A stretch of 64,000 bases of DNA, taken from positions 1 to 64,000 of the forward strand of contig NZ_AUIS01000008.1 of the NCBI RefSeq assembly GCF_000423825.1, given 5' to 3'. This stretch comes from Thermithiobacillus tepidarius DSM 3134. GTDB taxonomy: Bacteria > Pseudomonadota > Gammaproteobacteria > Acidithiobacillales > Thermithiobacillaceae. A program made the translations under genes and the position numbers. Below are positions 2,299 to 60,443 of this stretch, one piece after another. Within the stretch, counting starts at the first letter, position 1. Every line of letters begins with the position of its first letter. The notes beneath the pieces were generated by a model. That model saw only the letters and a program-made list of their open reading frames with translations. It was not told the DNA's origin and searched no databases.

Positions 2299-2312
2299 TT
2301 GATCTGCGTCAA
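2299..2312. promoter_or_regulatory. FNR/DNR-type box upstream of DUF2249-hemerythrin gene
   Basis: TTGATCTGCGTCAA, centred 63 bp upstream of the start at 2242. It overlaps the stop codon of the preceding hemerythrin gene. Confidence 0.75.
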
Positions 2313-2839
2313 GCGCCGGCCTTGCGCCGCTCGGCCATGTGCCGGCCCAGGACCTGCAGATCGGCCGCCGACAGCACTTGCCGCGCCAAAGGCAGGATGT
2401 GTTCGTCTTCGGTGGCCATGTGCGCGTGGTAGAGCTCGGCGAAGCGTGCCACCGGCAACGCTTCCGGCGCCACCATCTCGCCCTGGGCCAGTCGGCGCAG
2501 CAGGGGCGCCAGCTCCGCCCAGGCCTGTTCCATCGCCCGGTGCTGCGTTTCGAGCTGATGCAGGGTCTGCAACACGGCATGGCCGCCGGTGGCGGTGGCG
2601 TGGCGGTGCAGGATCGGAAAGAGATTCGCTTCCTCGTCCTCGTGGTGATGGCGGCCGGCGCTGTCGAAGTAGCGCAGGGCCTTGGCCGCCGCCTGGCGCA
2701 CCTGCTCGTCGCAGCCGTGCGTCCGCAGGTAATCGGGCAGGCGCAGCAGGGTGGCGCACTGGGCCTTGATGCGGCCGTGGCAGGCGCCCAGCAGGCCCAG
2801 GGGATCGCTGAAGTCCGGGGCGGGGCTGGAGAGCTGCAT
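2309..2839 (-). CDS. Hemerythrin HHE-domain protein
   Basis: This 176-residue protein starts MQLSSPAPDFSDPLGLLGACH. Hemerythrin metal-ligand segments are visible: an early H in GACHGRIKAQ, RHHHEDEEANLFPIL, LETQHRAMEQ and YHAHMATEDEHILPL. The ATG at 2839 lies 4 nt after the stop of the DUF2249 gene, so the two are cotranscribed and probably translationally coupled; a longer in-frame version would overlap that gene and is rejected. It is the last gene of the HdrB-like / truncated globin / DUF2249 / hemerythrin operon. Di-iron binding of O2 or NO is expected. Confidence 0.82.
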   Translation of the reverse strand: MQLSSPAPDFSDPLGLLGACHGRIKAQCATLLRLPDYLRTHGCDEQVRQAAAKALRYFDSAGRHHHEDEEANLFPILHRHATATGGHAVLQTLHQLETQHRAMEQAWAELAPLLRRLAQGEMVAPEALPVARFAELYHAHMATEDEHILPLARQVLSAADLQVLGRHMAERRKAGA

Positions 2840-2843
2840 GGCC

Positions 2844-3101
2844 TTAGCGCCGGGTGAAGTCGATGACGATCTGGCCCGGCTGCCGCTCCACGTACTCGAT
2901 CTGCACGCCGTCGCCGTAGCGCGCGTGCAGTTGATCGAGCAGCGGCAGGGGATCGTGGTCGTTGGTAAAGCGCATGGTCTCCCCCGGCTGCAGCGCGTCC
3001 AGCGCCCCGAAGATGGCGGCATGGCGGAAGCGCTTGGCGACGCCGCGGGCGTCGAAGGGATGGACCGGCTTGGGGGAAAAGGTGGCGATTTCTGCGTGCA
3101 T
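2844..3101 (-). CDS. DUF2249 protein (TusA-like fold)
   Basis: This 85-residue protein has the DUF2249 layout: KPVHPFDARGVAKRFRHAAIFGALDALQPGETM, then NDHDPLPLLDQLHARYG and a final strand VQIEYVERQPGQIVIDF. The family has a TusA/SirA-like alpha-beta fold; its biochemical function is not established. The ATG at 3101 opens the conserved region and is 26 nt after the globin stop. It precedes a hemerythrin gene by 4 nt, the same pairing seen at 13575-14265 and as a fusion at 1523-2242. Confidence 0.75.
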   Translation of the reverse strand: MHAEIATFSPKPVHPFDARGVAKRFRHAAIFGALDALQPGETMRFTNDHDPLPLLDQLHARYGDGVQIEYVERQPGQIVIDFTRR

Positions 3102-3127
3102 GGCAAACTCCTTGGACTGAATGCCGA

Positions 3128-3550
3128 TCAGGGTGTCGGTTGCTGCTCTTGGTAGAACTCGCACATGAGCCGCAGGGAGCGACCCATGTTGACCGCCCGT
3201 TCCAGCCAGGCGGCGGCCAGTTCGGGCGGCAGGTGGTCGGCCAGGGTCTGGGCGAAGAGTGCGAGCCAGTCGTCGATCAGGGCCGGGGTCACGCCGACCG
3301 GAGCGTGCTTGTCGATCAGGTTGTAGCCGTCCGGCCGGAAGCGCGGGCCGCCCAGGCTGATCCACCAGAAATGGGTGAGGTGGGCCTTGTGCTCGTCCCA
3401 GTCGCTTACGATGCCGAAGGGCTCGGCCAGGGTGGGATGCCGCTGGATGCGGTCGTAGAAGTCATCCACCACCGCGCGGATGCGCGGCAGGCCGATCTCC
3501 GCGAAAGTCGGCCGCAGCCGCTTGCCCGTCTGTTCCGCACTCGACGCCAT
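3128..3550 (-). CDS. Group III truncated hemoglobin
   Basis: This 140-residue globin has group III (Ctb-like) hallmarks. The segment W-D-E-H-K-A-H-L-T-H-F-W (residues 51-62) is followed by LGGPRF and by KHAPVGVT, where His82 is the likely proximal haem ligand. Group III globins bind O2 and NO and are linked to nitrosative stress in Campylobacter. It starts 13 nt after the stop of the HdrB-like gene and precedes DUF2249 and hemerythrin genes, forming an operon of diatomic-gas-binding proteins under an FNR-type box at 5073. Confidence 0.85.
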   Translation of the reverse strand: MASSAEQTGKRLRPTFAEIGLPRIRAVVDDFYDRIQRHPTLAEPFGIVSDWDEHKAHLTHFWWISLGGPRFRPDGYNLIDKHAPVGVTPALIDDWLALFAQTLADHLPPELAAAWLERAVNMGRSLRLMCEFYQEQQPTP

Positions 3551-3563
3551 GCTTCATGTCTCC

Positions 3564-4928
3564 TTAAATTGGGCCGACCTGCTGGGCACTCACCAGCGCC
3601 AGGTTGGGGTCGTACAGGTATTCGACGTTGCCGGCCTCGACTTGTTTCAGGTACTGCTCGAATTGCTTCTTGGCCTCGGACCAGGAGATGCCCATCTTCT
3701 CGACCAGCTCCTCGCAGGGCGAGGCATGCCACTGCAGCTGCACGATCTTGAAGGGATCGGCGCCGCAGGCCAGCGCCGCGAACTGCACGTCGGCCATGAT
3801 CGGCATGGAGTAGTTCTTCTCGTGGGCACGGCCGATCCACTGGTTCTTGTCCATGGTGGTGATGCAGCCGGTGTCATGTCCCACCATGACGTCGGCCTTG
3901 GCCTCTTCCTGCGCCACCTTGATCTTGCGGTCGATGGTGAAGGAACGGGTGAATTCGCGCTCGGAGATGATGTGCCGGAAGCCGAAGCCGCAGCAGTCAT
4001 ACCAGGTGGAATAATCGATCACTTGCGCGCCCAGGGCCATCAGCACCGAGGTGGTGACGGCCACCCGGTTGCCGCCCAGCACATCCGGATCGTAGATGGC
4101 ATCCTCGGGCACCATCTTGTAGACGTGGCAGGCCGGATGCACGGTGGTCCGGATGTGGGACACGTCGATCTTCTGCAGGTCGGAGGCGATGCGATTGCGC
4201 ATGACGTGCAGCCACTCGGAGTAGTGCACGATCTCCTCGGGGATGACGATCTTGCCGTCCACCAAGCGGCCGATCTTGCCGAGGATCTTCTTCACCTTCT
4301 CGCGCAGCTCGGCGCTCTCGATCAGATACTTGCGCACCTCCTTGTAATTGCCGAAGGAGGTGCCGCAGTGCACCAGGGGATAGAAATAGCCGGGACCATA
4401 GCCGTGCTGCTTGCCCGAGACGTAGGCCTGGTGGAAATTGCGCAGGAACACGGCGGCCAGCGACTCGACGTTGCCGATGCCGGAGCCGTGATAGTTCCAG
4501 GCCGTGCAGGAGGTCTGGTCGGTCTCGTCCAGATAGTCGCGCCCCGGCACCTGGCCGAGCTCGTTCATGAGCCACAGGAGGCTCGTCGGGTAGCCTGGGA
4601 TGTTGCCGCACTGGCCACAGGACTTGTGATGCCAGAGCTGCTTGGTGGGGATGCGCTTGTCCCAGCCGTACAGCGTTTTCGTCATCACCGGCGCGTGCTC
4701 GTCGCGGATGCGGTGGACGATGATCTCGCCCTCCTTCTCCAGCTCCCACATGTGGTCGCGGATGTCGTCGATGCGCTCGCCGAGGTCGATGGTGCGCCGG
4801 TCCACGTGCTTGCGCACCCAGGAGGTGGCGCGCTCCGCCTCATCGGTGCTGAGATTGGTGGCCTGGAAAAAAGCCCCGTGGCCGGCGATGCCCTGCGCTT
4901 GCGTATCCATGGAATCATTCGTACCCAT
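3564..4928 (-). CDS. Heterodisulfide reductase subunit B-like CCG-domain protein
   Basis: This 454-residue soluble protein resembles HdrB-type CCG proteins. Cysteines visible from the chosen start are C104 and C107 (CGQC), C141 (SCTAWNYHGSG), C188, C267 (VHPACH), C312-C313 (DCCGFG), C355 (HDTGC) and C388. The C-terminal set follows the CCG layout, but the final CxxC reads D-T-G-C, so one canonical ligand is missing. The start at 4928 is chosen because AGGAGG lies 5 nt upstream; an adjacent ATG at 4931 is too close. No hdrA or hdrC is present. It leads an operon with globin, DUF2249 and hemerythrin. HdrB relatives handle disulfides, for example in the sHdr sulfur-oxidation complex; the substrate here is unknown. 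Confidence 0.7.
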   Translation of the reverse strand: MGTNDSMDTQAQGIAGHGAFFQATNLSTDEAERATSWVRKHVDRRTIDLGERIDDIRDHMWELEKEGEIIVHRIRDEHAPVMTKTLYGWDKRIPTKQLWHHKSCGQCGNIPGYPTSLLWLMNELGQVPGRDYLDETDQTSCTAWNYHGSGIGNVESLAAVFLRNFHQAYVSGKQHGYGPGYFYPLVHCGTSFGNYKEVRKYLIESAELREKVKKILGKIGRLVDGKIVIPEEIVHYSEWLHVMRNRIASDLQKIDVSHIRTTVHPACHVYKMVPEDAIYDPDVLGGNRVAVTTSVLMALGAQVIDYSTWYDCCGFGFRHIISEREFTRSFTIDRKIKVAQEEAKADVMVGHDTGCITTMDKNQWIGRAHEKNYSMPIMADVQFAALACGADPFKIVQLQWHASPCEELVEKMGISWSEAKKQFEQYLKQVEAGNVEYLYDPNLALVSAQQVGPI

Positions 4929-5072: not shown

Positions 5073-5086
5073 TTGATCTGGATCAA
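5073..5086. promoter_or_regulatory. FNR/DNR box upstream of the HdrB-like operon
   Basis: TTGATCTGGATCAA is a perfect consensus palindrome (CCTTGATCTGGATCAAGG extended), centred about 150 bp upstream of 4928. It overlaps the stop codon of nsrR, so the operon downstream can be switched independently of the nor cluster. Confidence 0.85.
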
Positions 5087-5514
5087 GGCCGCATATAGCC
5101 CAGCGCCGGCGCCGGCATCCGCAGGAAATCGGCCAGGGTGTAGCGGTCCAGCGCCGCCAGGAACTGTTCCAGCGCCTCGTGCAGTGCGCCCTTCAGAGCG
5201 CAGCTGTGCTCGATCACGCAGCGCCGGCCGCAGCTGCCGAAGCAGTCGACGAGATGCAGGTCCTCTTCGGCGCGGCGCACCACCTCGCCGACGTTGATGG
5301 CCTCCGGGGCGCGGGCCAGCTGGATGCCGCCCCCGCGGCCCCGCACGCTGCGGATGTAGCCCCAGTTGCCCAGGTGGTGCACCACCTTGATCAAGTGGTT
5401 CTTGGAAATGCCGTGGTAGCGCGCGATCTCGCCGGTGGTGGTCAGGAGGTCGCGCTGGCGGCCGAGATAGATGAGCACGCGCAGGGCATAGTCGGTGTAA
5501 AGGGTCAGGTGCAT
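5083..5514 (-). CDS. nsrR: NsrR, Rrf2-family nitric-oxide-sensing repressor
   Basis: This 143-residue Rrf2 protein starts MHLTLYTDYALRVLIYLG, with a winged helix including SKNHLIKVVHHLG. The iron-sulfur loop holds C91, C95, C99 and C105 (CFGSCGRRC ... C), and the tail ALEQFLAALDRYTLADFL is typical of NsrR. NsrR carries a cluster that NO destroys, lifting repression of NO-detoxifying genes. It lies 39 bp downstream of norD on the same strand, and a matching operator candidate lies upstream of norC at 13327, so the nor cluster probably encodes its own repressor. Confidence 0.92.
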   Translation of the reverse strand: MHLTLYTDYALRVLIYLGRQRDLLTTTGEIARYHGISKNHLIKVVHHLGNWGYIRSVRGRGGGIQLARAPEAINVGEVVRRAEEDLHLVDCFGSCGRRCVIEHSCALKGALHEALEQFLAALDRYTLADFLRMPAPALGYMRP

Positions 5515-5553: not shown

Positions 5554-7389
5554 TCAACGGGTCAGCTGGGCATAAAGCAGCGGCAGGCGCCGCGGCAGCT
5601 CCGCGGGCTTGCGGATCACCACGTAGCCGCCGGGCCCGAACAGGTGCGGCAGATAGCCGCCGGCTTTTTCGTCGATGGTGACGCAGAAAGGCAGCAGGCC
5701 GCGCCGGCGCGCCTCCAGCACCGCCTGCCGGGTGTCCTCCACGCCGTAGCGCCCTTCGTACTGGTCCAAGTCGTTGGGCTTGCCGTCGGTCAGGAGCAGC
5801 AGCAGGCGCTGTCCGGCGCGCTCGCGCTCGAGGAGCACGCTGGCGTGGCGGATGGCCGCGCCCATGCGCGTGTAGTAGCCGGGCTTGACCGCGGCGATGC
5901 GGCCGCGCACCTGGGCGCCGTAGCTCTCGCCGAAGTCCTTCAGGGTGTGGAAGCGCACGTTGTCGCGGCGCAGGGAGCTGAAGCCGTAGAGGGCGAAGCG
6001 GTCCTGGCTGGCGGACAGCGCTTCGGCGAAGAGGAAAAGGCCGTCGCGGATCACGTCGATGACGCGCGCCTCGTCGCTCACCCAGGCGTCGGTGGACAGG
6101 GACAGATCGGCCAGCAGCAGGCAGGCCAGATCGCGATCGCGGCGATGCTGCGCCCGGTACAGGCCACGCTCGCCGGCCAAGGCGCCGCTGTGCCGCTCGG
6201 CGCTGTCCCGCACGCAGGCGTCCAGATCCAGGTCGGGACCGTCGAACTGGCCCTTGAGCCAGACCCGCGCCGGGGCCAGGGCCTGGAACTGGCTGCGGAT
6301 GCGCCGCGCGGTGGCCGCCAAGTGGGACGGCAGGGCGCAGGGGACGGCCCGCTGGGCGATCAGGGGCTGGACGCGGCAGTGCTCGGGCTGCATCGCCCGC
6401 TTGCGGTAGTGCCACTCCGGCAGCAGGATGCCGCCGCCCAGCGGGACGTCGTCCACCGCGGCGGAAGGCAGATCCAGATCAAAGCGCAGGCGCGAGGCCA
6501 CGGCTTTCTGGTCGCGGGCCACGCTCAAACGGTCCAGATCGTCGGCGGCCTGCTCGGCGCCGGTCGCGTCGTCCTCCTCGGTGGGACGGTTCACGCGCAC
6601 GTACTCGGCCCAGCTGAGAATGCTCTCGGCACGGAAGAACAGCATGAAGCCGCTCTTGTTGTCCGGCATTTCCACCCGCTCGGCCTGCCGGCGGCGCTGA
6701 TCCGCCGCATTCCGGCTGCCGCCGTCGCACTCCGGCGGCGGCAGCTCCGCCGCTCCGGCCACGTTGTCCGCTGCGCCGACGGGCGGATTGGGATGCAGCC
6801 ACAGGTGCACGGGATGGGGCGGGCGCCTGGCGGGCGGCAGGGCAGCGACGCTGCCGGGCTGCCGGAGCGCGGCGCGAATGGCGCGCTCCTGCGCCGCCTC
6901 GTCGGCAGGCAGCCGCTCGGGCGCCGGACGCAGGGCCAGCGCCGGCTCCAACAGCCGCGCGTAGCGTGCGCGCATGCCCGGAAAGCGCGCGAAGGCCTGC
7001 AGCGTGGCCTGCTGGCTGCGCAGCAGCCAGGGCTGCTCCGCCGCCGCGGACGTGGCCGCCAGGGCAATGAGCCAGAGATAGAGATCGCGGTTCAGCGCGC
7101 GCGTGGGGAAAAGATCGATGGCCCCCGGCAGGCGCAGGGTCGCCTCGTCCAGCCAAGTCAGCTCCACTTTCCGGCTGTCGCCGGCCAGGCGCTGCAGCAT
7201 GCCGCGGCGGGCGCCGTGGGCGGTCGCCGTGGCGGCCTCGACGGTCAGGCCGCCGTCACCGCCCAGGGCGCGAAACAGGATGCCCGCGGTCTTGCCGAGG
7301 CCGTCGAGGGTCACCGCCGCTTCCGGGTAGCGCCGCTCGGCGGCGCGGGTAATCAGGCGATGCCACAGGGCGCCGATCTGCTCCTCCAT
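5554..7389 (-). CDS. norD: NorD, nitric oxide reductase activation protein
   Basis: This 611-residue protein has a C-terminal von Willebrand factor A domain. The MIDAS motif is visible as LADLSLSTD, followed by LLLLLTDGKPNDLDQYEG and the terminal GPGGYVVIRKP region. NorD works with the AAA ATPase NorQ to insert the non-haem iron into cNOR. The ATG at 7389 has GGAGG 7 nt upstream and is favoured over an upstream in-frame codon at 7431. It starts 1 nt after the stop of the NapH-like gene, in the long minus-strand nor operon. Confidence 0.9.
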   Translation of the reverse strand: MEEQIGALWHRLITRAAERRYPEAAVTLDGLGKTAGILFRALGGDGGLTVEAATATAHGARRGMLQRLAGDSRKVELTWLDEATLRLPGAIDLFPTRALNRDLYLWLIALAATSAAAEQPWLLRSQQATLQAFARFPGMRARYARLLEPALALRPAPERLPADEAAQERAIRAALRQPGSVAALPPARRPPHPVHLWLHPNPPVGAADNVAGAAELPPPECDGGSRNAADQRRRQAERVEMPDNKSGFMLFFRAESILSWAEYVRVNRPTEEDDATGAEQAADDLDRLSVARDQKAVASRLRFDLDLPSAAVDDVPLGGGILLPEWHYRKRAMQPEHCRVQPLIAQRAVPCALPSHLAATARRIRSQFQALAPARVWLKGQFDGPDLDLDACVRDSAERHSGALAGERGLYRAQHRRDRDLACLLLADLSLSTDAWVSDEARVIDVIRDGLFLFAEALSASQDRFALYGFSSLRRDNVRFHTLKDFGESYGAQVRGRIAAVKPGYYTRMGAAIRHASVLLERERAGQRLLLLLTDGKPNDLDQYEGRYGVEDTRQAVLEARRRGLLPFCVTIDEKAGGYLPHLFGPGGYVVIRKPAELPRRLPLLYAQLTR

Positions 7390-7390
7390 G

Positions 7391-8413
7391 CTATCCTCCC
7401 CGCCTGGCGGAAGAGGCCAGGCCGTGTGCAATCAGCGGCTTCACTTCTCCCGCCGCGCCGGCGCGCGGGAAGCAGTGGCCCGGCGACGGCGGATGCTGCC
7501 CGAAGTCGCGGGCCGATTTGTCCAGGGCGCAGTCGCCCTGCACCCACTGCAGCAGCGATCCCTGCGGGTTGCCGCGCTGGACCTCGCCGCAGGCGCTTGC
7601 GCAGCGGCCGCACTGGGTGCAGGCGAACATCTGGCGCTTGATGCTGCGCGGCCGCAGTCGCATCGGGCAGGCATGCTCGCAGGCGGCGTTGCAGTCGGCG
7701 CAAGCCGCCGCCCGGCGGCGGTCATAGCCGATCACCAGCGCCCGCCGGTTGGCCATCCAGGCGAAGCTCTGAAACAGGCCGACGGCGCAGCCGAAGCGGC
7801 AGAACAGGTGGCGGGCGAGGGTGAAATCGATGAAGAACAGCAGCGTGCCGGCGCCGATGAACAGGGCCTGATTGCGGGTCAGGGCGCCATGCCACAGGTT
7901 GCCGTAAACCACCGCCGGCGGCAGCAGATAAGTGAGCAGCACCGTGGCCCAGACGAAGGCGACGGCCAGGCCCGCGGGCGTCAGCAGCAGCCAGTACCAG
8001 CGATTCGGCCGCACGCGGCTGCCGTCGGGGTCCTGCTCCGGCAACCGCTGGCGGTCCCACAGGCTGTGCTTGCCGATGGCGCGGCGCATCAATCCGTTGA
8101 GGCTTTCCACCACCGAGAAGTGGGGGCACAGCCAGCCGCAGTAGAGCCGGCCGTAGCGCAGCGACATCCAGATGCCCGCGCCGACCACCGCCGCGATCGG
8201 CAGAAAGCCGCGCAACGTCAGATTGACCATGGCCTCGCCGATGCCGATGCGCCCGGCGGCCAGATCATCCAGGCCCAGCGTCCAGTGCAGCCCGAAAAAG
8301 AAGAAGTGCTTCTGGTACAGGTCCAGCCGGAAAATGTCGAAAACCGGCGCCAGGATGAACAGCAGCAGAAAGCCGGCCTGGAAGTAGCGGCGTTGTCGCT
8401 GCGTCTTATGCAT
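7391..8413 (-). CDS. NapH/NosR-like membrane polyferredoxin in nor operon
   Basis: This 340-residue membrane protein has about four to five hydrophobic segments, a [12 protein letters not shown] motif typical of NapH/NosR/CcoG-type proteins and a similar FCRFGCAVG motif. Its C-terminal ferredoxin domain has [13 protein letters not shown] and [13 protein letters not shown], consistent with two 4Fe-4S clusters. Such proteins pass electrons from the quinone pool or assist maturation. The ATG at 8413 overlaps the preceding chemoreceptor gene by 8 nt, so it is co-translated with the nor operon. A specific role in NO reduction is inferred from position only. Confidence 0.78.
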
Positions 8414-9569
8414 GTGCCTGCTCCCGCACGCCGGCGTGGGCCATGTCCCTTCCAACGTCCGATTCACCCAAAATCCCGTGGCGCCGGAGCATCCGTCCGA
8501 AGCCGTCCATGACCACCGCGTGCGCCTGCTCCATGCGACCCAGCGCCTCCATCGCCGCCTCGCGCTCGCCGGCATGGTGGCACGTCACGGCGCGGCGGGC
8601 GTGCACGTGCACCGCCTTGTGCGGCTCCTCCAGCTCCCGATAGCCGGGTATGTGGGAAAACAACGCCTTGCCTTCGCCCGCGTAATACCACTGTCCCAGG
8701 CTGCACCCGGTCTCATCGGGAATGTCGTCGGCTGTCATCGGCGACAGGCCCATGAGCACCTTGTACACCTCCAGCTTGAGCAAGAGCTCCTCGATATTGG
8801 CCAACTGGATGTTGCTCAGCAGGGAAGAACCGGAAATGGCGCCCTCCATGCGCCGGGAGAGGTCGAGCAGCTTTTCCATGCTGTGCATGGCGGCACTGCT
8901 CTCTTCGCTGAAGCGGCGCGTATCGGCGGACCGGACTTCCATCACCTGCCGGGCCTGCCGCATTTCCTCGCGGATGTAAGCCACCAGGCTGGAGATCTCG
9001 CCGGTAGCCCGCGTCGTCCGTTCGGCGAGTTTGCGCACCTCGTCGGCAACCACCGTAAAGCCGCGCCCCTGCTCGCCGGCCCGTGCCGCCTCGATGGCCG
9101 CGTTCAGGGCCAGCAGATTGGTTTGGTCGGCGATCTCCTGGATGAGCTGCACGATGCCTTCGATCTCATTGACGCGCCCGTTGAGCGCGTCGACGCTAGC
9201 AACGGTTTCCCGGGTGCCCGCCAGCATGAGCCGCAGGTTTTCGGTGATGCGCTGGAATGCCAGCCGGTTGCCGTCCGATTCGCTGGCGGCCAGCAGGACG
9301 GATTCCCGCTCGGCGTGCAGGATGCGGGCCAGCTCGGCGAAGGACAGTCGCACGCCGCCGATGGAATCGCCGAAAGCGGCCAGTTTCGCAAACAGTTGTC
9401 CGCTCCAGGTGCGCTGCGCTTCCAGCATCTCGCTCCGCGCATGCCAATGATCGCGCTCCTCCTGCAGGGCGGCGAGCTGCGCCTGGAGGGCGGCGTTCTC
9501 CCGACTCAAGCGCTGGCAATCTGTTTCCAGGATCGCCACGCGGGCTTTGCTTTTGGACCATAGCATCAT
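8406..9569 (-). CDS. Soluble chemoreceptor with C-terminal CZB domain
   Basis: This is a methyl-accepting chemotaxis protein of 387 residues without membrane segments. It starts with a coiled coil (about 15-55), then the signalling hairpin with the signature [20 protein letters not shown] and [13 protein letters not shown]. The C-terminus resembles a CZB zinc-binding domain ([37 protein letters not shown]), but the usual first histidine appears replaced (LLLKLEVYK). Two starts are possible; 9569 has GAGGTG 5 nt upstream and is favoured over a GTG at 9575. It lies between norQ and the NapH-like gene with near-zero spacing, so it is expressed with NO reductase. Confidence 0.85.
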
Positions 9570-9576
9570 CGGCACC

Positions 9577-10410
9577 TCACCGCGCGAAAAGGGTTTGCAC
9601 CACTTCCATCAAGGCCGCCGCCGTCTCCTCGTCGTCGGTGAGCGGCTCGACCAGCGCGGCCCGGCAGGCCTCCAGGGGATCGAAGCCGCCCTGGATGAGC
9701 TTGGCGGCGTAGACCAGCAGCCGGGTGCTGGCCACTTCCTCCAGATCGTGCTCCCGCAACGCGCGCAAGGCCTGGGCCAGGGAGACCAGACGCTTGGCCG
9801 CCGGCCCGTCGATGCCGGTCTCCGCCATGACGATCTCCTGCTCCGCGGCTGGTGCCGGGAAGTCGAAGCGCAGCGAGACGAAGCGCTGGCGCGTGCTGGG
9901 CTTCATGCTCTTGAGGAAATTCTGGTAGCCGGGGTTGTAGGACACCACCAGCATGAACTCCGGCGGCGCCTGCAGCGTCTCGCCGGTGCGCTCGATGGGC
10001 AGGATGCGTCGGTCGTCGGACAGCGGATGCAGGACCACGGTGGTGTCCTTGCGCGCCTCCACCACTTCGTCCAAATAGCAGATGCCGCCCTCGCGCACGG
10101 CGCGGGTCAGCGGACCGTCGCTCCAGTAGGTGGCGCCGTCGCCGATCAGATGCCGGCCGATCAGATCGGCGGCGCTCAGGTCGTCGTGGCAGGCCACGGT
10201 GTAGAGCGGCCGCCCCAGACGCTGCGCCATGTATGAGACGAAGCGCGTCTTGCCGCAGCCGGTCGGTCCCTTGATGAGCAGCGGCAGCTGGTTGCGCCAG
10301 GCGTGTTCGAAGAGCGCGATTTCATGCGCCGCGGGCTGGTAGAAGGGCAGCGCCTGTTCGGTTTCGCGCGGCGCGGGCGCCACGGCCAGATTGGAAGCGT
10401 TGTGTCGCAT
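9577..10410 (-). CDS. norQ: NorQ, AAA ATPase for NO reductase maturation
   Basis: This 277-residue MoxR-type AAA+ ATPase has Walker A GPTGCGKT at residues 48-55 and Walker [14 protein letters not shown]. The sensor region reads [26 protein letters not shown], characteristic of NirQ/NorQ/CbbQ. With NorD it activates cNOR. Its position after norCBEF supports NorQ rather than CbbQ. The start codon at 10410 gives the full family length. Confidence 0.93.
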
Positions 10411-10735: not shown

Positions 10736-11326
10736 TCACCGAATGATGTAAACCAGCGCGAACAGCACGATCCAGACCAGGTCCACCATGTGCCAGTAGG
10801 AGGCGCCGGTCTCCACGCCCGTGTGCTCCGCCGCGCTGTAGGCGCCGCGCCGGGCCTTGTGCATCACCACCGCCAGGATCACCATGCCCAGCAGCACGTG
10901 CATGAAGTGGAACATGGTCAGGGACAGGTAGAACATGTAGAAGGTGTTGGTGCTCAGGGAGATGCCGGCCGAGAACTTGGCGTGGAACTCCGCGAGCTTG
11001 ATGACGATGAACACGCCGCCCAGGCCCAGGGTGCCCAGCAGCCAGTGGGCGCAGGCGCGTGCCTGGCCCAGCTTGATGGCCGCCACGGCGCGGGCCGCGA
11101 AGTAGCTGCTGGTGATGAGCACCAGGGTATTGGCCAGGCCCGCCGCCCGGTTGAGGGTAAGCTGGGAAGCGTTGAACAGCTCCACATGCTGGCTGCGCGC
11201 AAAGGCGTAGGCCAGGAACAGGATGCCGAAAACCAGCAGTTCGGCGAAGATGAAGACCCAAATGGCGAAGTCGCCCGGCAGGGCGCCGGCATGCGGCTCA
11301 TCCGCGCTGATGCTTTGTGCTTGCAT
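10736..11326 (-). CDS. norE: NorE, cytochrome oxidase subunit III-like protein
   Basis: This five-helix membrane protein of 196 residues resembles haem-copper oxidase subunit III (IWVFIFAELLVFGILFLAYAF, then SYFAARAV, and YLSLTMFHFMHVLLGMVIL). NorE assists NO reductase function without being part of the purified NorCB core. The ATG at 11326 has GGAG 6 nt upstream; an ATG two codons earlier would sit right on that site. It lies between norB and norF. Confidence 0.88.
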   Translation of the reverse strand: MQAQSISADEPHAGALPGDFAIWVFIFAELLVFGILFLAYAFARSQHVELFNASQLTLNRAAGLANTLVLITSSYFAARAVAAIKLGQARACAHWLLGTLGLGGVFIVIKLAEFHAKFSAGISLSTNTFYMFYLSLTMFHFMHVLLGMVILAVVMHKARRGAYSAAEHTGVETGASYWHMVDLVWIVLFALVYIIR

Positions 11327-11411
11327 GGTCATCTCCAGTCACAACGAGCTTGGTGGGAGGGCCGGGAGGAGGCGGGATGCCCCCTTCCCGATGCCCCAGT
11401 GCCTTGAGCGC

Positions 11412-13269
<1,858 letters not shown>

Positions 13270-13452: not shown

Positions 13453-13466
13453 TTGATCTGGATCAA
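13453..13466. promoter_or_regulatory. FNR/DNR box between norC and hemerythrin operon
   Basis: TTGATCTGGATCAA, a perfect consensus, lies in the divergent norC/hemerythrin region, 115 bp before the hemerythrin start at 13575 and about 190 bp before norC. It may serve either or both directions. The rest of this 305-bp spacer holds the NsrR-like site; I see nothing else in it. Confidence 0.8.
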
Positions 13467-13574
13467 AGATTCTCCGAGCGGATTGGTCAACAATTTTTCC
13501 AGGGCCGCAACCGGGTGTCCCACGCCGGCATCCGGCCGGACCGCCTGCCAACCTCATCTATTCAGGACATGACC

Positions 13575-14036
13575 ATGGACAGCATCAGCCGTTATCTGGG
13601 ATCCGATCACCACCATTGCGACGACCTCTTCGCCCAAGCCGAAGATGCCGCCGCGCGGCGCGACTGGGCGGCCTGCGAGGCCGGCTTCCGCGCCTTTGCC
13701 GAGGCCACGGCCCAGCACTTCCGCATGGAGGAGGAAGTGCTCTTTCCCGCGCTGGAGGCGCAGACCAGCCCGCTTGGCCCGACCCGCATCATGCGCATGG
13801 AACACCGGCAGATGGAGGAGTTGCTGGAGGGCATGAAGCAAGCGCTGGCGCAGCGCCGGGCCGAGGACTTCCTGGGCGGGGCGGAGACGCTGCTGATCAT
13901 GATGCAGCAGCACAACCTCAAGGAAGAACAGGTCCTCTACCCCATGGCCGACCAGGTGCTGCAGGCCGGCCGGGCGGCGCTGATCGCCCGCATGGATGCG
14001 CTCGCCGGGCGGGCCGAGGCGGTGGGACATGGCTGA
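13575..14036 (+). CDS. Hemerythrin HHE-domain protein
   Basis: This 153-residue hemerythrin starts MDSISRYLGSDHHHCDDLF. Ligand segments are visible: DHHH near the N-terminus, QHFRMEEEVLFPALE, RMEHRQMEELL and QQHNLKEEQVLYPMADQ. The ATG at 13575 is preferred over one two codons upstream because AGGA lies 7 nt before it. Its stop overlaps the start of a DUF2249 gene by 8 nt. It is divergent from norC and downstream of a perfect FNR-type box, consistent with a role in NO or O2 handling during denitrification. Confidence 0.88.
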   Translation: MDSISRYLGSDHHHCDDLFAQAEDAAARRDWAACEAGFRAFAEATAQHFRMEEEVLFPALEAQTSPLGPTRIMRMEHRQMEELLEGMKQALAQRRAEDFLGGAETLLIMMQQHNLKEEQVLYPMADQVLQAGRAALIARMDALAGRAEAVGHG

Positions 14037-14265
14037 GGAACGGGTCATCGACGTGCGCGGCCTGGAGCCGCCGGAACCCATGGAGCGGGTGCTGGCGGCG
14101 CTCGCCTCCCTGGCGCCGAACCAGCACCTGCGCATGGTGCACCACCGGGAGCCCCGCCTGCTCTACCCCATCCTCGACAAGCGCGGCTACGCCCACGACA
14201 CCCGGCAGGCGGCGGACGACTGCTACGAAATCCGCATCTGGCGCCGTGAGCCGGCGCCGGGCTGA
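14029..14265 (+). CDS. DUF2249 protein (TusA-like fold)
   Basis: This 78-residue protein is a clear DUF2249 member: VIDVRGLEPPEPMERVLAAL, then APNQHLRMVHHREPRLLYPI, LDKRGYAHDT and a final strand YEIRIWRR. The start ATG overlaps the end of the hemerythrin gene (ATGGCTGA), implying translational coupling. The function of the family is not established. The consistent pairing with hemerythrin in this window is the best clue. Confidence 0.85.
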   Translation: MAEERVIDVRGLEPPEPMERVLAALASLAPNQHLRMVHHREPRLLYPILDKRGYAHDTRQAADDCYEIRIWRREPAPG

Positions 14266-14279
14266 GCAGGAGGCGATCC

Positions 14280-15572
14280 GTGTCCGCTCCCGGCCTCTCC
14301 TTCGAGCAGGCGCCGCCGCTCGGCGTGCCGCTGCGTTTTTTTCTCAGCGCCCCGCCTTTTCTGCTGCTGGCCGCCGTGGTGCTGCTGTGGCAGGGCCCCA
14401 CCCTGCTCGCCAGCCGCTGGTCGCCGGGCCTGCTGGCGGTCACCCACGCTTTCACCCTCGGTTTCCTGGGGCTGGTGATGATCGGCGCCCTGCTGCAGAT
14501 GCTGCCGGTGGTCGCCGGCGCGCCGGTGGCGCGGCCGCGGCAGACCGCCATGGCCGTCCACGTGCCGCTGGCATTCGGCATTCTGGGCCTCATGGGCGGC
14601 TTCCTGTTCCAGCGCCCGTTCCTCTTCCAACTGGCGCTGCCGCTGCTGGGCGCCGGCTTCGCCGTCTTCCTGGCAGCCGTGGGCCTGGCTCTGACCCGTG
14701 CCGCCCGCAATCCCACCGTCACCGCCATGGGCCTGGCCGCCCTGGCGCTGCTGGCCACCGTGCTGCTGGGGCTGGTCCTGGCGAGCCGCTACGCCTGGCC
14801 CTGGCCGCTGGCGGCGCGCCTGCGGCTGGTCGACCTGCACCTGGCCTGGGGGCTCTTGGGCTGGGTCGGCCTGCTGATCGTCGGCGTGGCCTACCAGGTG
14901 GTGCCCATGTTCCAATTGACGCCGGCCTACCCGAAGCGCCTGGCGCGCTGGCTGGCGCCCGCCGCCTTCGCCCTGCTGGCGGCCTGGTCCGCCGCCGCCT
15001 GGAGCGGGCATGAGGGCGCCGCCGCCCTGGCCGGGCTTGCCTTGGCGGCCGTCCTGGCCGCCTTTGCCGGCGTCACCCTGCGCCTGCAGGCGCGCCGGCG
15101 GCGGCGCCAGCCCGACGCCACCCTGCTCTTCGCGCGCGCCGCCATGCTCAGCCTGCTGCTGGCGGTGGGGCTCTGGATCAGCGGAAGATTGCTGCCTGCC
15201 GTGGCGGCCCTGCCCGCCTATGAGCCGCTGCTCGGGATGCTGGTGATCGCGGGCTTCGCCGTGTCCATGGTCAACGGCATGCTGTACAAGATCGTGCCCT
15301 TTCTGGTCTGGTTCCACTTGCAGAGCCAGCGCGGCGCGGCGCCCAACATCCGGCTCATCGTGCCCGAGCAGCACACGCGCGGGCAGTTCTGGCTGCACTG
15401 CCTGGCCCTGGCGCTGCTGGCCCTGGCCATCCTGCGCCCGCAGCCCTTCCTCTACCCAGCCGCCCTGCTCCTGGCCGCCTCGGCGGGATGGCTGTGGTTC
15501 AACCTTTATGGGGCTTACCGGGTCTACCGCTTCGAGCACGGCCACGGCCGAGCGGCGGCCGCCGCCCGCTAG
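14280..15572 (+). CDS. Twelve-helix membrane protein of the nor neighbourhood
   Basis: This 430-residue polytopic protein has about twelve helices. It starts at a GTG at 14280 with AGGAGG 6 nt upstream. Conserved-looking histidines lie in helices: VTHAFTLGFLGLVMIGALLQ, VDLHLAWGLLGWVGLL and a late KIVPFLVWFHLQSQ. The layout recalls NnrS or haem-copper oxidase subunit I relatives, and haem binding is possible. I do not recognise a named family with confidence. It follows hemerythrin and DUF2249 genes with a 14-bp gap, so it belongs to that operon. It shares a CTAG with the convergent next gene so that both stop codons overlap. Confidence 0.6.
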   Translation: MSAPGLSFEQAPPLGVPLRFFLSAPPFLLLAAVVLLWQGPTLLASRWSPGLLAVTHAFTLGFLGLVMIGALLQMLPVVAGAPVARPRQTAMAVHVPLAFGILGLMGGFLFQRPFLFQLALPLLGAGFAVFLAAVGLALTRAARNPTVTAMGLAALALLATVLLGLVLASRYAWPWPLAARLRLVDLHLAWGLLGWVGLLIVGVAYQVVPMFQLTPAYPKRLARWLAPAAFALLAAWSAAAWSGHEGAAALAGLALAAVLAAFAGVTLRLQARRRRRQPDATLLFARAAMLSLLLAVGLWISGRLLPAVAALPAYEPLLGMLVIAGFAVSMVNGMLYKIVPFLVWFHLQSQRGAAPNIRLIVPEQHTRGQFWLHCLALALLALAILRPQPFLYPAALLLAASAGWLWFNLYGAYRVYRFEHGHGRAAAAAR

Positions 15573-57685: not shown

Positions 57686-58132
57686 TCATTCCGCGCAGCG
57701 CATGCACTGCACGTCGTAGCGGTCGATCCACTTCTGCAGGGCCTCGACGGCGGCCGCGCCGGTCGCCAGGGTGTCGAAGGCGTGCTCGGGGTCGTCGGGG
57801 CGCACCTTGGCGATCCAGGCGTCGTGGTAAGGATCGATGTTGACCAGGTTGGGCATCTCCAGCACCGCTTCGTTGACCGCGACCACGGTACCGGCGAAGG
57901 GGCAGGGCACGCCGCCGGCCCACTTGCCGCTCTCCAGGGTGGCCACGTGCCGGCCGGCCGCCAGGACCGTGCCCACCTTCTTGATGCGGATCTTCTGCAC
58001 CCGCCCGGCCATGGTCTGGGCCGGATCGGTGATGCCCAGGGTGACGGTGCCGTCCTCCTCCGGCCGGATCCACACATAGTCGAGATCGAAGAACAAATCG
58101 TCGGGCAACTCACAACCGCGGTATTCTGCCAT
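57686..58132 (-). CDS. GcvH/LbpA-like lipoyl-carrier protein
   Basis: This 148-residue protein has a biotinyl/lipoyl-type domain: VWIRPEEDGTVTLGITDPAQ at the start, then the lipoyl-lysine hairpin ATLESGKWAG with K70. The E-S-G-K context differs from typical GcvH (E-S-V-K) and resembles the lipoate-binding proteins (LbpA) of sHdr sulfur oxidation. The C-terminus has a C143-M-R-C146 pair. The ATG at 58132 follows GGGAGG and is preferred to one at 58144. No glycine cleavage genes are nearby. A consensus-like FNR box lies about 100 bp upstream. It may be served by the ligase-DUF116 fusion at 23308. Confidence 0.75.
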   Translation of the reverse strand: MAEYRGCELPDDLFFDLDYVWIRPEEDGTVTLGITDPAQTMAGRVQKIRIKKVGTVLAAGRHVATLESGKWAGGVPCPFAGTVVAVNEAVLEMPNLVNIDPYHDAWIAKVRPDDPEHAFDTLATGAAAVEALQKWIDRYDVQCMRCAE

Positions 58133-58225
58133 ACCCCCTCCCATGCCTCGCGGACATCACGCGCCGCGCGGCGGCGCGGCTTTCGGATCTTGGAAAGAGT
58201 CTAGGACCGGACGGCCTCGGCGTCA

Positions 58226-58239
58226 TTGATCTGGGTCAA
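58226..58239. promoter_or_regulatory. FNR/DNR-type box upstream of the lipoyl-carrier gene
   Basis: TTGATCTGGGTCAA, centred 100 bp upstream of 58132, in the 131-bp spacer after a DNR-type regulator gene. Confidence 0.8.
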
Positions 58240-58263: not shown

Positions 58264-58950
58264 TCAAACGCAGGTTTCGCGCCAGTGCCGCAGCTTGCCC
58301 AGATCGGGAATGCGGATCTGCGGACCGTCCAGCTCGATCAGGCCAAGGTCGCGCAGGGAGGCCAGCACCCGGGAAAAGGTCTCCGGCTTGATGCCCAGCC
58401 GCGAGGCGATGACGTTCTTGTGGGCGGGCAGTTGGAAGGTCGCCGTGCCCGACTGGGCGGGACAGTGCTCGAGCAGATAGCCGGCCACCCGCTGCCCGGC
58501 GGTCTCCAGGCTGAGGGCGCGCACGTCGTTGATGAGCTGATGCAGGCGCAGGCTGATGCTGGCCAGCATCTTCATGGCCATACTGTTGTTGGCCTTGAGG
58601 GTGCGGATGAAATCCGCCATGTCGATGCGCAGCAGCCGGGCCGGTCCCAGGGCCGCGGCGTAGACCGGATAGCGCCCGCCGAGAAAGACCACGGCCTCGG
58701 CGAAGGTCTCGCCCGCCTGAATGAGCTCGATCACCTTCTCGTTGCCGTCCGGCGCCAGCTTGAACAGGCGCATGCCGCCGCTGACGATGAAGTAAAAGGC
58801 GTCCGCCTTGTCCCCCTCGCGAAACAGCAGCGCGCCCGTCTCCAGTTCCAGGGAACGGGCATTGGCCGCGATCTGGGCCAGTTCGTCGGGGCTCAGCGCG
58901 GAAAAAAGCGGCGCCTGCCGCAGCAGCGTGGTGTCGGCGTCATTGAGCAT
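58264..58950 (-). CDS. Crp/Fnr-family regulator, DNR type (second copy)
   Basis: This 228-residue regulator starts MLNDADTTLLRQAPLFSALSPDELAQIAANARSLEL. It has the sensor beta barrel, a dimer helix (MKMLASISLRLHQLINDVRALSLE) and recognition helix KPETFSRVLASLRDLG with the E-x-x-S-R pattern. It lacks FNR-type cysteines, as the copy at 16102 does. Such proteins sense NO through haem in Pseudomonas. The ATG at 58950 is preferred over one at 58998 that adds non-conserved residues. Confidence 0.82.
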   Translation of the reverse strand: MLNDADTTLLRQAPLFSALSPDELAQIAANARSLELETGALLFREGDKADAFYFIVSGGMRLFKLAPDGNEKVIELIQAGETFAEAVVFLGGRYPVYAAALGPARLLRIDMADFIRTLKANNSMAMKMLASISLRLHQLINDVRALSLETAGQRVAGYLLEHCPAQSGTATFQLPAHKNVIASRLGIKPETFSRVLASLRDLGLIELDGPQIRIPDLGKLRHWRETCV

Positions 58951-59032
58951 GGCGGGGGTCCTAGCACGATCATAGTGCATGAACCGGCCCGCCGCCAACC
59001 TCGCGCCGGCCGCCCAGGCGCCGCGGGAATGC

Positions 59033-59744: not shown

Positions 59745-60443
59745 ATGATTTTCCGGCAACTGTTCGATCCGACCACCTCCACCCTCACCTACCTGCTCGG
59801 CGACGAGGCCACGCGCCAGGCGGTGCTCATCGACTCCGTGCTGGAGCAGGTGGACCGCGACCTGGCCTTGCTGCAGGAACTCGGCCTGACCCTGGCCTAT
59901 ACCCTGGAAACCCACATCCACGCCGACCACGTCTCCGGCGCCAAGCGCCTGCGCGAGCTGACCGGCTGCAAGATCAGCGTGCCCGACCCGGCCAAGCTGG
60001 ACTGCGCGGACCTTCTGGTGCGCGAGGGCGAACCGCTGCAGCTGGGCAGCCTGCGCATCGAGCCGTTGCATACGCCCGGGCATACGGACGTGGATTTCTG
60101 CTATCGGGTGGGCGACCGCGTCTTCACCGGCGACACCCTGCTCATCGACGGCTGCGGACGCACCGACTTCCAGAGCGGCGATGCCGCCGCCCTGTACCGT
60201 TCGGTGCAGGACAAGCTCTTCACCCTGCCGGGCGAGACCCTGGTCTACCCGGGCCACGACTACAACCACCGGCGGGTGTCCAGCATCGAGCAGGAGCGCC
60301 TGCGCAATCCGCGCCTGGGCGGCGGCAAGACCCTGGACGAGTTCGTGGCCATCATGGACAACCTGAACCTGCCCAAGCCGGCGCAGATCGAGCGCGCCGT
60401 GCCGGCCAACCTGGGCTGCGGCCGGGCGGCCGCGGGCGCTTAG
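59745..60443 (+). CDS. Persulfide dioxygenase-like metallo-beta-lactamase protein (ETHE1 type)
   Basis: This 232-residue MBL-fold protein has metal motif H57-I-H59-A-D61-H62, then HTPGHTDVDFCY and VYPGHDYNHR. The FTGDTLLIDGCGRTDFQSGD segment is typical of ETHE1-type persulfide dioxygenases, which oxidise glutathione persulfide to sulfite. It opens an operon with an ArsR regulator, an MFS transporter and a rhodanese, a sulfide/persulfide detoxification arrangement. Confidence 0.88.
   Translation: MIFRQLFDPTTSTLTYLLGDEATRQAVLIDSVLEQVDRDLALLQELGLTLAYTLETHIHADHVSGAKRLRELTGCKISVPDPAKLDCADLLVREGEPLQLGSLRIEPLHTPGHTDVDFCYRVGDRVFTGDTLLIDGCGRTDFQSGDAAALYRSVQDKLFTLPGETLVYPGHDYNHRRVSSIEQERLRNPRLGGGKTLDEFVAIMDNLNLPKPAQIERAVPANLGCGRAAAGA

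Follow-up and report, generated by a model that had tools for sequence, protein, structure and literature searches.

The term window is used here for the opening 64 kb of contig C6 (NZ_AUIS01000008.1) in the 2.96 Mb genome of the sulfur oxidizer Thermithiobacillus tepidarius DSM 3134. The window encodes an HdrB-like iron–sulfur (Fe-S) protein of 454 amino acids (aa; minus strand, 3564–4928, later starts possible; Pfam CCG, E 4.8e-7) at the head of a small operon beside a nor-type gene cluster. Judged by its sequence relationships, this protein is an extra sHdrB1, a paralogue of the large HdrB subunit encoded in the host's own sHdr (heterodisulfide-reductase-like) operon for sulfur oxidation. 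There is about an even chance that this orphan, encoded away from the sHdr operon, is an isoform induced during denitrification or by nitric oxide (NO) which the host's sHdr complex takes up instead of its operon-encoded sHdrB1. The cytoplasmic sHdr system rests on Fe-S clusters and protein-bound lipoate, and the question is how it is run in organisms that make NO.

Identity and conserved residues of the window protein

A search of the host genome with the HdrB-like protein returned a second match on contig C5 at 87–88% identity. The surrounding operon encodes Rhd, TusA, DsrE2, sHdrC1, sHdrB1 (450 aa), sHdrA, Hyp, sHdrC2, sHdrB2 (303 aa), LbpA, DsrE3 and a further LbpA, and its gene order matches the hdrC1B1A-hyp-hdrC2B2 arrangement given in one published account (PMC6335251). 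Since the match lies in a full sHdr operon, the window protein is an additional sHdrB1; its nearest sequence relatives are likewise the sHdrB1 proteins of sHdr operons. A preliminary description of the window had left it unplaced as a stand-alone CCG protein. This is not borne out, as the protein is a paralogue of sHdrB1, a characterised Fe-S subunit of sHdr sulfur oxidation, and a stand-alone HdrB-like family was dropped once the operon copy had been found in the same genome. The accompanying statement that hdrA and hdrC are absent holds for the operon itself (none within 2309–4928) but not for the genome, which carries the full sHdr operon on contig C5.

An AlphaFold2 model of the window protein (mean pLDDT 72.6, pTM 0.78), of low confidence around several cysteines, has an HdrB fold from residue 95 onward, with 7bkb_B (Z 26.2, root-mean-square deviation 2.7, 288 residues) and 5odc_B (Z 25.9) as matches. 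Nine cysteines are invariant across 64 of 64 full-length sHdrB1 rows, the window copy included. In counts of conserved columns that leave out the partial rows L111 and L143, the window copy deviates at 4 of 274 operon-conserved columns, the other orphans at NO-linked loci (NO-type, see below) at 4–7 and one of them, L086, at 16. Operon copies deviate at a median of 1 and a maximum of 5 columns, except for the divergent L134 (38 of 282). Canonical HdrB binds non-cubane clusters through five cysteine ligands per cluster, with CxxC in both CCG motifs. Of each CxxC pair of 5odc one cysteine is replaced, by S191 in the first motif and by D352 in the second, and operon sHdrB1 has the same two residues without exception. 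A canonical five-cysteine non-cubane site is therefore not expected in either sHdrB1 copy.

These residues bear on the most serious alternative, in which the orphan would act alone in the NO response, reducing disulfides/persulfides or S-nitrosothiols with electrons from a small thioredoxin or an unlinked donor. The preliminary description had posed a route for NO-damaged thiols or persulfides as a hypothesis, and it is rather unlikely. In methanogens HdrB is the subunit that reduces the disulfide, the operon contains neither sHdrC nor sHdrA, and a CxxC thioredoxin of a type that also accompanies LbpA3 (the third lipoate-binding protein, see below) is encoded close by at 573–821. Against this, almost all operon-conserved columns are retained, the five-cysteine site is incomplete just as in operon sHdrB1, and the orphan was never found in a genome without sHdr. 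Because nearly all operon-conserved residues are kept and the operon offers no HdrC-type donor, a subunit of a complex fits better than a lone repair enzyme, and stand-alone thiol repair is less likely than an sHdrB1 isoform.

Genomic setting, FNR boxes and age of orphan sHdrB1 genes

The orphan gene shares the minus strand with a truncated haemoglobin, probably of group III (3128–3550; Pfam Bac_globin, E 9.5e-11), a DUF2249 protein of the 'DARGVAKRFRHAAIFGALDAL' subtype (2844–3101; Pfam DUF2249, E 3.9e-28) and hemerythrin Hr1 (2309–2839; PF01814, E 1.1e-14), with gaps of only 13, 26 and 4 nt. The FNR/DNR-type box TTGATCTGGATCAA (5073–5086) lies upstream, overlapping the end of an NsrR-like gene, and the nor cluster adjoins. 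The tight operon with its perfect FNR box was thus correctly described from the outset. The properties assigned to two of its members fare less well. Group III membership of the globin is plausible, the group III haemoglobin 2ig3 being matched in PDB (E 0.0014), but unproven, as better scores go to other truncated globins. The DUF2249 protein had been called TusA-like; it contains no cysteine at all and so cannot carry persulfide in the manner of TusA, and a sulfur-carrier role is contradicted by the missing active-site cysteine.

A class survey of 369 genomes (threshold E ≤ 1e-60) found sHdrB1 in 22. The single-copy loci fetched from it all lie in sHdr operons (16/16); extra copies occur in G000, G001, G049 and G118, with a fragmentary one in G003, while the single full copy of G002 lies at a contig end and was assigned to neither operon nor orphan. 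Of 57 genomes of relatives, 32 gave a match at E ≤ 0.001, and many of these hold two copies. Gene context was scored within a 4 kb radius for 106 operon rows, duplicates kept, and for 25 orphan rows that represent 21 distinct places (L139 merged with L086, L142 with L007, L155 with L083, and the halves L135/L137 with each other). Hemerythrin, DUF2249, globin or small thioredoxin genes accompany 11 of the 25 orphan rows, or 9 of the 21 places, and none of the operon rows. These NO-type places are the window, L007, L034, L048, L086, L110, L111, L117 and L118; such neighbours are missing at the remaining 12, most of which are of the AFE_2586 kind from Acidithiobacillus. The L116 gene is identical to that of L117 but lacks the DUF2249 neighbour. 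Every one of the seven genomes with an NO-type orphan (G000, G001, G022, G396, G397, G398 and G399) also has the operon copy; none without sHdr was found among them.

The arrangement is conserved beyond the window. The relative G001 keeps norCBEFQD-nsrR-sHdrB1-DUF2249 without the globin, and the combination of HdrB-like, DUF2249 and hemerythrin genes recurs in further genomes. On the Acidithiobacillus ferrooxidans plasmid NZ_CP082239 (L118), the orphan stands with a globin, an FAD reductase, a thioredoxin, two hemerythrins, a GcvH/LbpA-like gene and DUF2249, and a Crp/Fnr gene, hcp and NnrS lie further away. The same locus encodes, 3' of the orphan (11077–11535), a protein of the carboxymuconolactone decarboxylase family that has a CAFC motif and is AhpD-like by eye; AhpD elsewhere couples lipoyl domains to peroxidases.

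One DUF2249 subtype is common to seven NO-type loci, with 64–93% identity among them and mostly 25–40% to other DUF2249 proteins. It was rejected as a part tied to sHdrB1, being present also in genomes without sHdr, and a hemerythrin–DUF2249–Rrf2 set without sHdrB1 occurs on Cupriavidus, Paraburkholderia and Caballeronia plasmids. Since this set exists without it, sHdrB1 looks as if sulfur oxidizers had added it to the set. Denitrifying Haloferax mediterranei is described as having more of its DUF2249 proteins and of a truncated globin (PMC11218638), and Thermus nitrate respiration includes the DUF2249 proteins DrpA and DrpB (PMC6282519).

Other irregular copies were also seen. G001 has a third sHdrB1 copy (L111, L144) near a globin, an FAD reductase, Crp and LbpA3, with a protein almost the same as that of the operon copy. 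In Acidithiobacillus ferrianus (NZ_WNJL01000050.1; L012, L017) the sHdr operon seems to be split at sHdrB1, of which two inverted copies are separated by about 34 kb, one flanked by rhd-tusA-dsrE2-C1-B1 order and the other by B1-A-hyp-C2-B2, as expected from a recombination inversion or a repeat misassembly. Acidithiobacillus sp. HP-2 (L071) and G006 (contig C12, L153) have an additional sHdr mini-cluster in the order B1-C2-B2-C1, with no sHdrA close by.

FNR-type boxes separate the two kinds of orphan in part. Within the window, 16 sites fit TTGAYNNNNRTCAA with no more than one mismatch, where 1.7 would be expected; none of 100 shuffles reached that number, so the surroundings of the operon exceed chance. 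An exact box within 400 nt upstream is found for five of ten NO-type orphans, L116 being counted among them (window, L110, L007, L034 and L086), compared with 0/9 other orphans, 0/97 operon sHdrB1 genes and 1/90 first operon genes. L116 and L117 have a box with one mismatch.

Most NO-type orphans share only 52–60% of third codon positions with their genome's operon copy, at 79–93% amino-acid identity. This excess of third-codon over protein divergence indicates that most of them are old and under purifying selection. Third-codon identity rises to 81.9% in the window pair and to 73–87% in the G001 pairs. The window pair is nearly the same at the codon level over aa 306–425 (segment test, permutation p 0.0004), and 58 of its 59 amino-acid differences fall outside aa 305–429; an earlier permutation test, on the longest identical-codon run, gave p 0.077. 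Over aa 78–102 and 253–302, the window copy and the G001 orphan are 96–100% identical to one another, and each shares 60–80% with its own operon copy. The pattern is that of partial gene conversion by the operon copy around what would be isoform-specific segments.

Single residues point the same way. Seven of nine NO orphans carry V269, P274 and V289, the first of them lying two positions away from the conserved C267, and gamma/beta operon copies mostly have Y, H and T at these positions (45, 38 and 39 of 46). As a derived NO signature the three residues were rejected because outgroup sHdrB1 rows carry them too (V269 and V289 in 6/6, P274 in 5/6); V269 and V289 are to be read as ancestral states, and P274 probably as one. 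The window copy and L110 have V269/P274/V289 as in outgroups, yet M348/I377 as in operon copies, and Sulfuriferula-type orphans have Y/H/T yet L348/V377 as in other NO orphans. The NO-type gene probably represents an old paralogue of which the operon copy has overwritten parts in different lineages. The whole-gene tree had suggested several independent recruitments of sHdrB1, a reading that this mosaic weakens.

LbpA3 and the candidate role of the isoforms

A second sHdr part in the window is a third LbpA (LbpA3; lipoate-binding, GcvH-like; minus strand, 57686–58144; GCV_H, E 1.1e-34), with an FNR box upstream (58226–58239) and a Crp/FNR-family regulator adjoining (minus strand, 58264–58998; cNMP_binding, HTH_Crp_2). 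In alignment it has the N- and C-terminal cysteines and the ESGKW lysine by which LbpA proteins are recognised (PMC6067878), and it is 40–48% identical to operon LbpAs. The LbpA3 group (>200 bits) occurs in 18 of the 369 class genomes, 17 with sHdrB1 and one, a 75% complete assembly, without. Away from the operon, 21 LbpA3 rows (20 distinct) have a small thioredoxin (18), hemerythrin (16) or Crp (10) gene within 4 kb. Thioredoxin, hemerythrin, globin or DUF2249 is found in this radius for 20 of the 21, as against 0 of 167 operon LbpA rows; the window copy is an exception, the Crp gene being its sole such neighbour. An exact FNR box precedes 4 of 20 scanned LbpA3 genes (window, L186, L171 and L111). 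LbpA1 and LbpA2 have been described, with three lbpA genes at the hdr cluster in some instances, in a paper whose main text mentions neither hemerythrin nor thioredoxin (PMC6067878). Across sHdr genomes, LbpA3 with small thioredoxin and hemerythrin forms a predicted conserved module, not found described in open-licence full texts; nor was an NO-linked orphan hdrB, or an NO link of the third LbpA, found in that literature. Close to LbpA3 in the window, positions 59745–60443 encode a metallo-beta-lactamase-fold protein that resembles ETHE1-type persulfide dioxygenases by eye, followed by an ArsR-like frame; a relative in G001 (L111) is 87% identical.

The thioredoxin and hemerythrin neighbours of LbpA3 speak for a second alternative, in which the orphan, LbpA3, small thioredoxin, hemerythrin and Crp regulator would form a dedicated lipoyl-based NO-handling system with parts borrowed from sHdr. 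LbpA3 and orphan sHdrB1 share a locus in L118, L111 and L086, and NO is reported to attack the protein-bound lipoate of pyruvate dehydrogenase (PMC10444860). However, LbpA3 was rejected as an orphan-specific part because many sHdr genomes have it without an orphan sHdrB1, and 53 kb separate the two genes in the window; such a system is improbable. Equally doubtful is gene dosage or passenger status, with sHdrB1 duplicates arriving in NO clusters by chance and kept through gene conversion: AFE_2586-type copies are indeed 98–99.9% identical to the operon copy in DNA in most genomes and lie in unrelated surroundings, but most NO-type copies combine old third-codon divergence with a conserved protein, and are thus under selection, and their NO neighbours and FNR boxes recur.

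In the favoured reading, replacement of sHdrB1 by an NO/anoxia isoform, a denitrifying cell in which NO rises would make orphan sHdrB1, which would displace the operon-encoded subunit in the sHdr complex. The swap might substitute for an NO-damaged Fe-S subunit or provide a form suited to anoxia. Globin and hemerythrin may bind or remove NO or O2 around the orphan, and electrons from sulfur oxidation would feed denitrification. In Hyphomicrobium denitrificans, loss of the sulfur regulator sHdrR or SoxR is reported to lower nitrate-respiration transcripts, including nor and nnrS (PMC12423496).

Several points weigh against this replacement. NO-type orphans are few in number, and half of the ten lack an exact FNR box. 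As the AFE_2586-type orphans show, NO genes need not accompany a second sHdrB1. Conservation like that of an sHdr subunit could have causes other than membership of the complex, and gene conversion follows from sequence similarity and does not require shared function. In the whole-gene tree, an approximately unbiased (AU) test rejects a single clade of the nine NO orphans (p 0.018); a clade of seven, without the two Sulfuriferula-type rows, is not rejected (p 0.50), this group having been picked after seeing the data. A single origin of the NO orphans consequently requires assumed conversion, and the mosaic is inferred.

A wider proposal, that sHdr sulfur oxidizers own a second, NO/anoxia version of their lipoate-dependent machinery, is more tentative. 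It would consist of an ancient sHdrB1 isoform and the third LbpA, turned on by FNR/DNR-type regulators along with the globin, hemerythrin, DUF2249 and thioredoxin, and would either enter the standard complex or work alongside it; Acidithiobacillus plasmids carry parts of the module. If true, the regulated sHdrB1/LbpA3 isoform pair would make the question of sHdr function in NO-making organisms testable, and would give a use to some orphan hdrB genes and to the third LbpA near hemerythrin and thioredoxin.

Neighbouring genes and known systems

The minus-strand cluster runs in the order norC-like, norB-like, norE-like, small norF-like, norQ, chemoreceptor-like, NapH-like ferredoxin, norD-like and NsrR-like Rrf2 genes, followed on the same strand by the sHdrB1 operon and a second hemerythrin gene. 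Pfam families and gene context suggested the nor names, and those of the chemoreceptor and norF come from reading of the sequence. The cluster encodes a NorC-like cytochrome c (12844–13269; Cytochrom_C, E 2.4e-12), a NorB-like protein of the COX1 superfamily (11412–12818; COX1, E 9.8e-76), a NorE-like protein of the COX3 family (10736–11332; COX3, E 9.3e-16), a NorQ-like AAA ATPase (9577–10410; AAA_5, CbbQ_C) and a NorD-like VWA protein (5554–7389; VWA, synteny with G001). The chemoreceptor-like gene (8406–9539), between norQ and the NapH-like and norD genes, is missing from the G001 cluster. The Rrf2 regulator (5083–5514; Rrf2, E 5.3e-36) scores 119 bits against NCBIfam NsrR, the top of nine families but below the equivalog cut-off of 182, and is therefore named NsrR-like. 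Divergent from norC, a hemerythrin, a further DUF2249 and an NnrS-like gene occupy 13569–15572, with an FNR box in between (13453–13466); Pfam gave no match to the NnrS-like gene, which is named by similarity and by eye.

Downstream of the operon lie the second hemerythrin-domain protein, Hr2 (minus strand, 1523–2242, start uncertain; PF01814, E 1.5e-16), with the FNR/DNR-type box TTGATCTGCGTCAA upstream (2299–2312), hemerythrin Hr3 on the plus strand (1043–1486; FNR-type box upstream at 944–957) and, again on the minus strand, the small thioredoxin (KWCPTCPE; Thioredoxin_3) already mentioned.

Known systems share some of these traits. The denitrification-linked set on megaplasmid pHG1 of Cupriavidus necator H16 has the same DUF2249 subtype adjoining hemerythrin and an Rrf2 regulator; unlike the window set, it lacks sHdrB1. 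The orphan hdrB AFE_2586 of A. ferrooxidans is described as having a promoter separate from that of the hdr operon, as being induced by sulfur along with hdr, and as having a regulatory region that RegA binds (PMC2754497, PMC5506826). Like the window gene, it is a second hdrB away from the hdr operon, but the AFE_2586-type orphans fetched, to which AFE_2586 is linked by description alone, lack NO genes in a 4 kb radius and hardly differ from the operon copy. LbpA3 resembles LbpA1 and LbpA2 of sHdr in its lipoyl lysine context and both terminal cysteines, and differs in being encoded off the operon, mostly near thioredoxin and hemerythrin. Methanogen HdrB (5odc, 7bkb) is alike in fold (Z 25.9–26.2 over 285–288 residues), but identity is about 21%, and the window protein has 95 extra N-terminal residues and CxxC pairs cut to one cysteine. 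With sHdrB1 of the sHdr complex, finally, the window copy shares length class, CCG domain and all conserved cysteines; it differs in retaining V269/P274/V289 and in being encoded alone, within an NO operon behind an FNR box, without sHdrC1 or sHdrA as neighbours.

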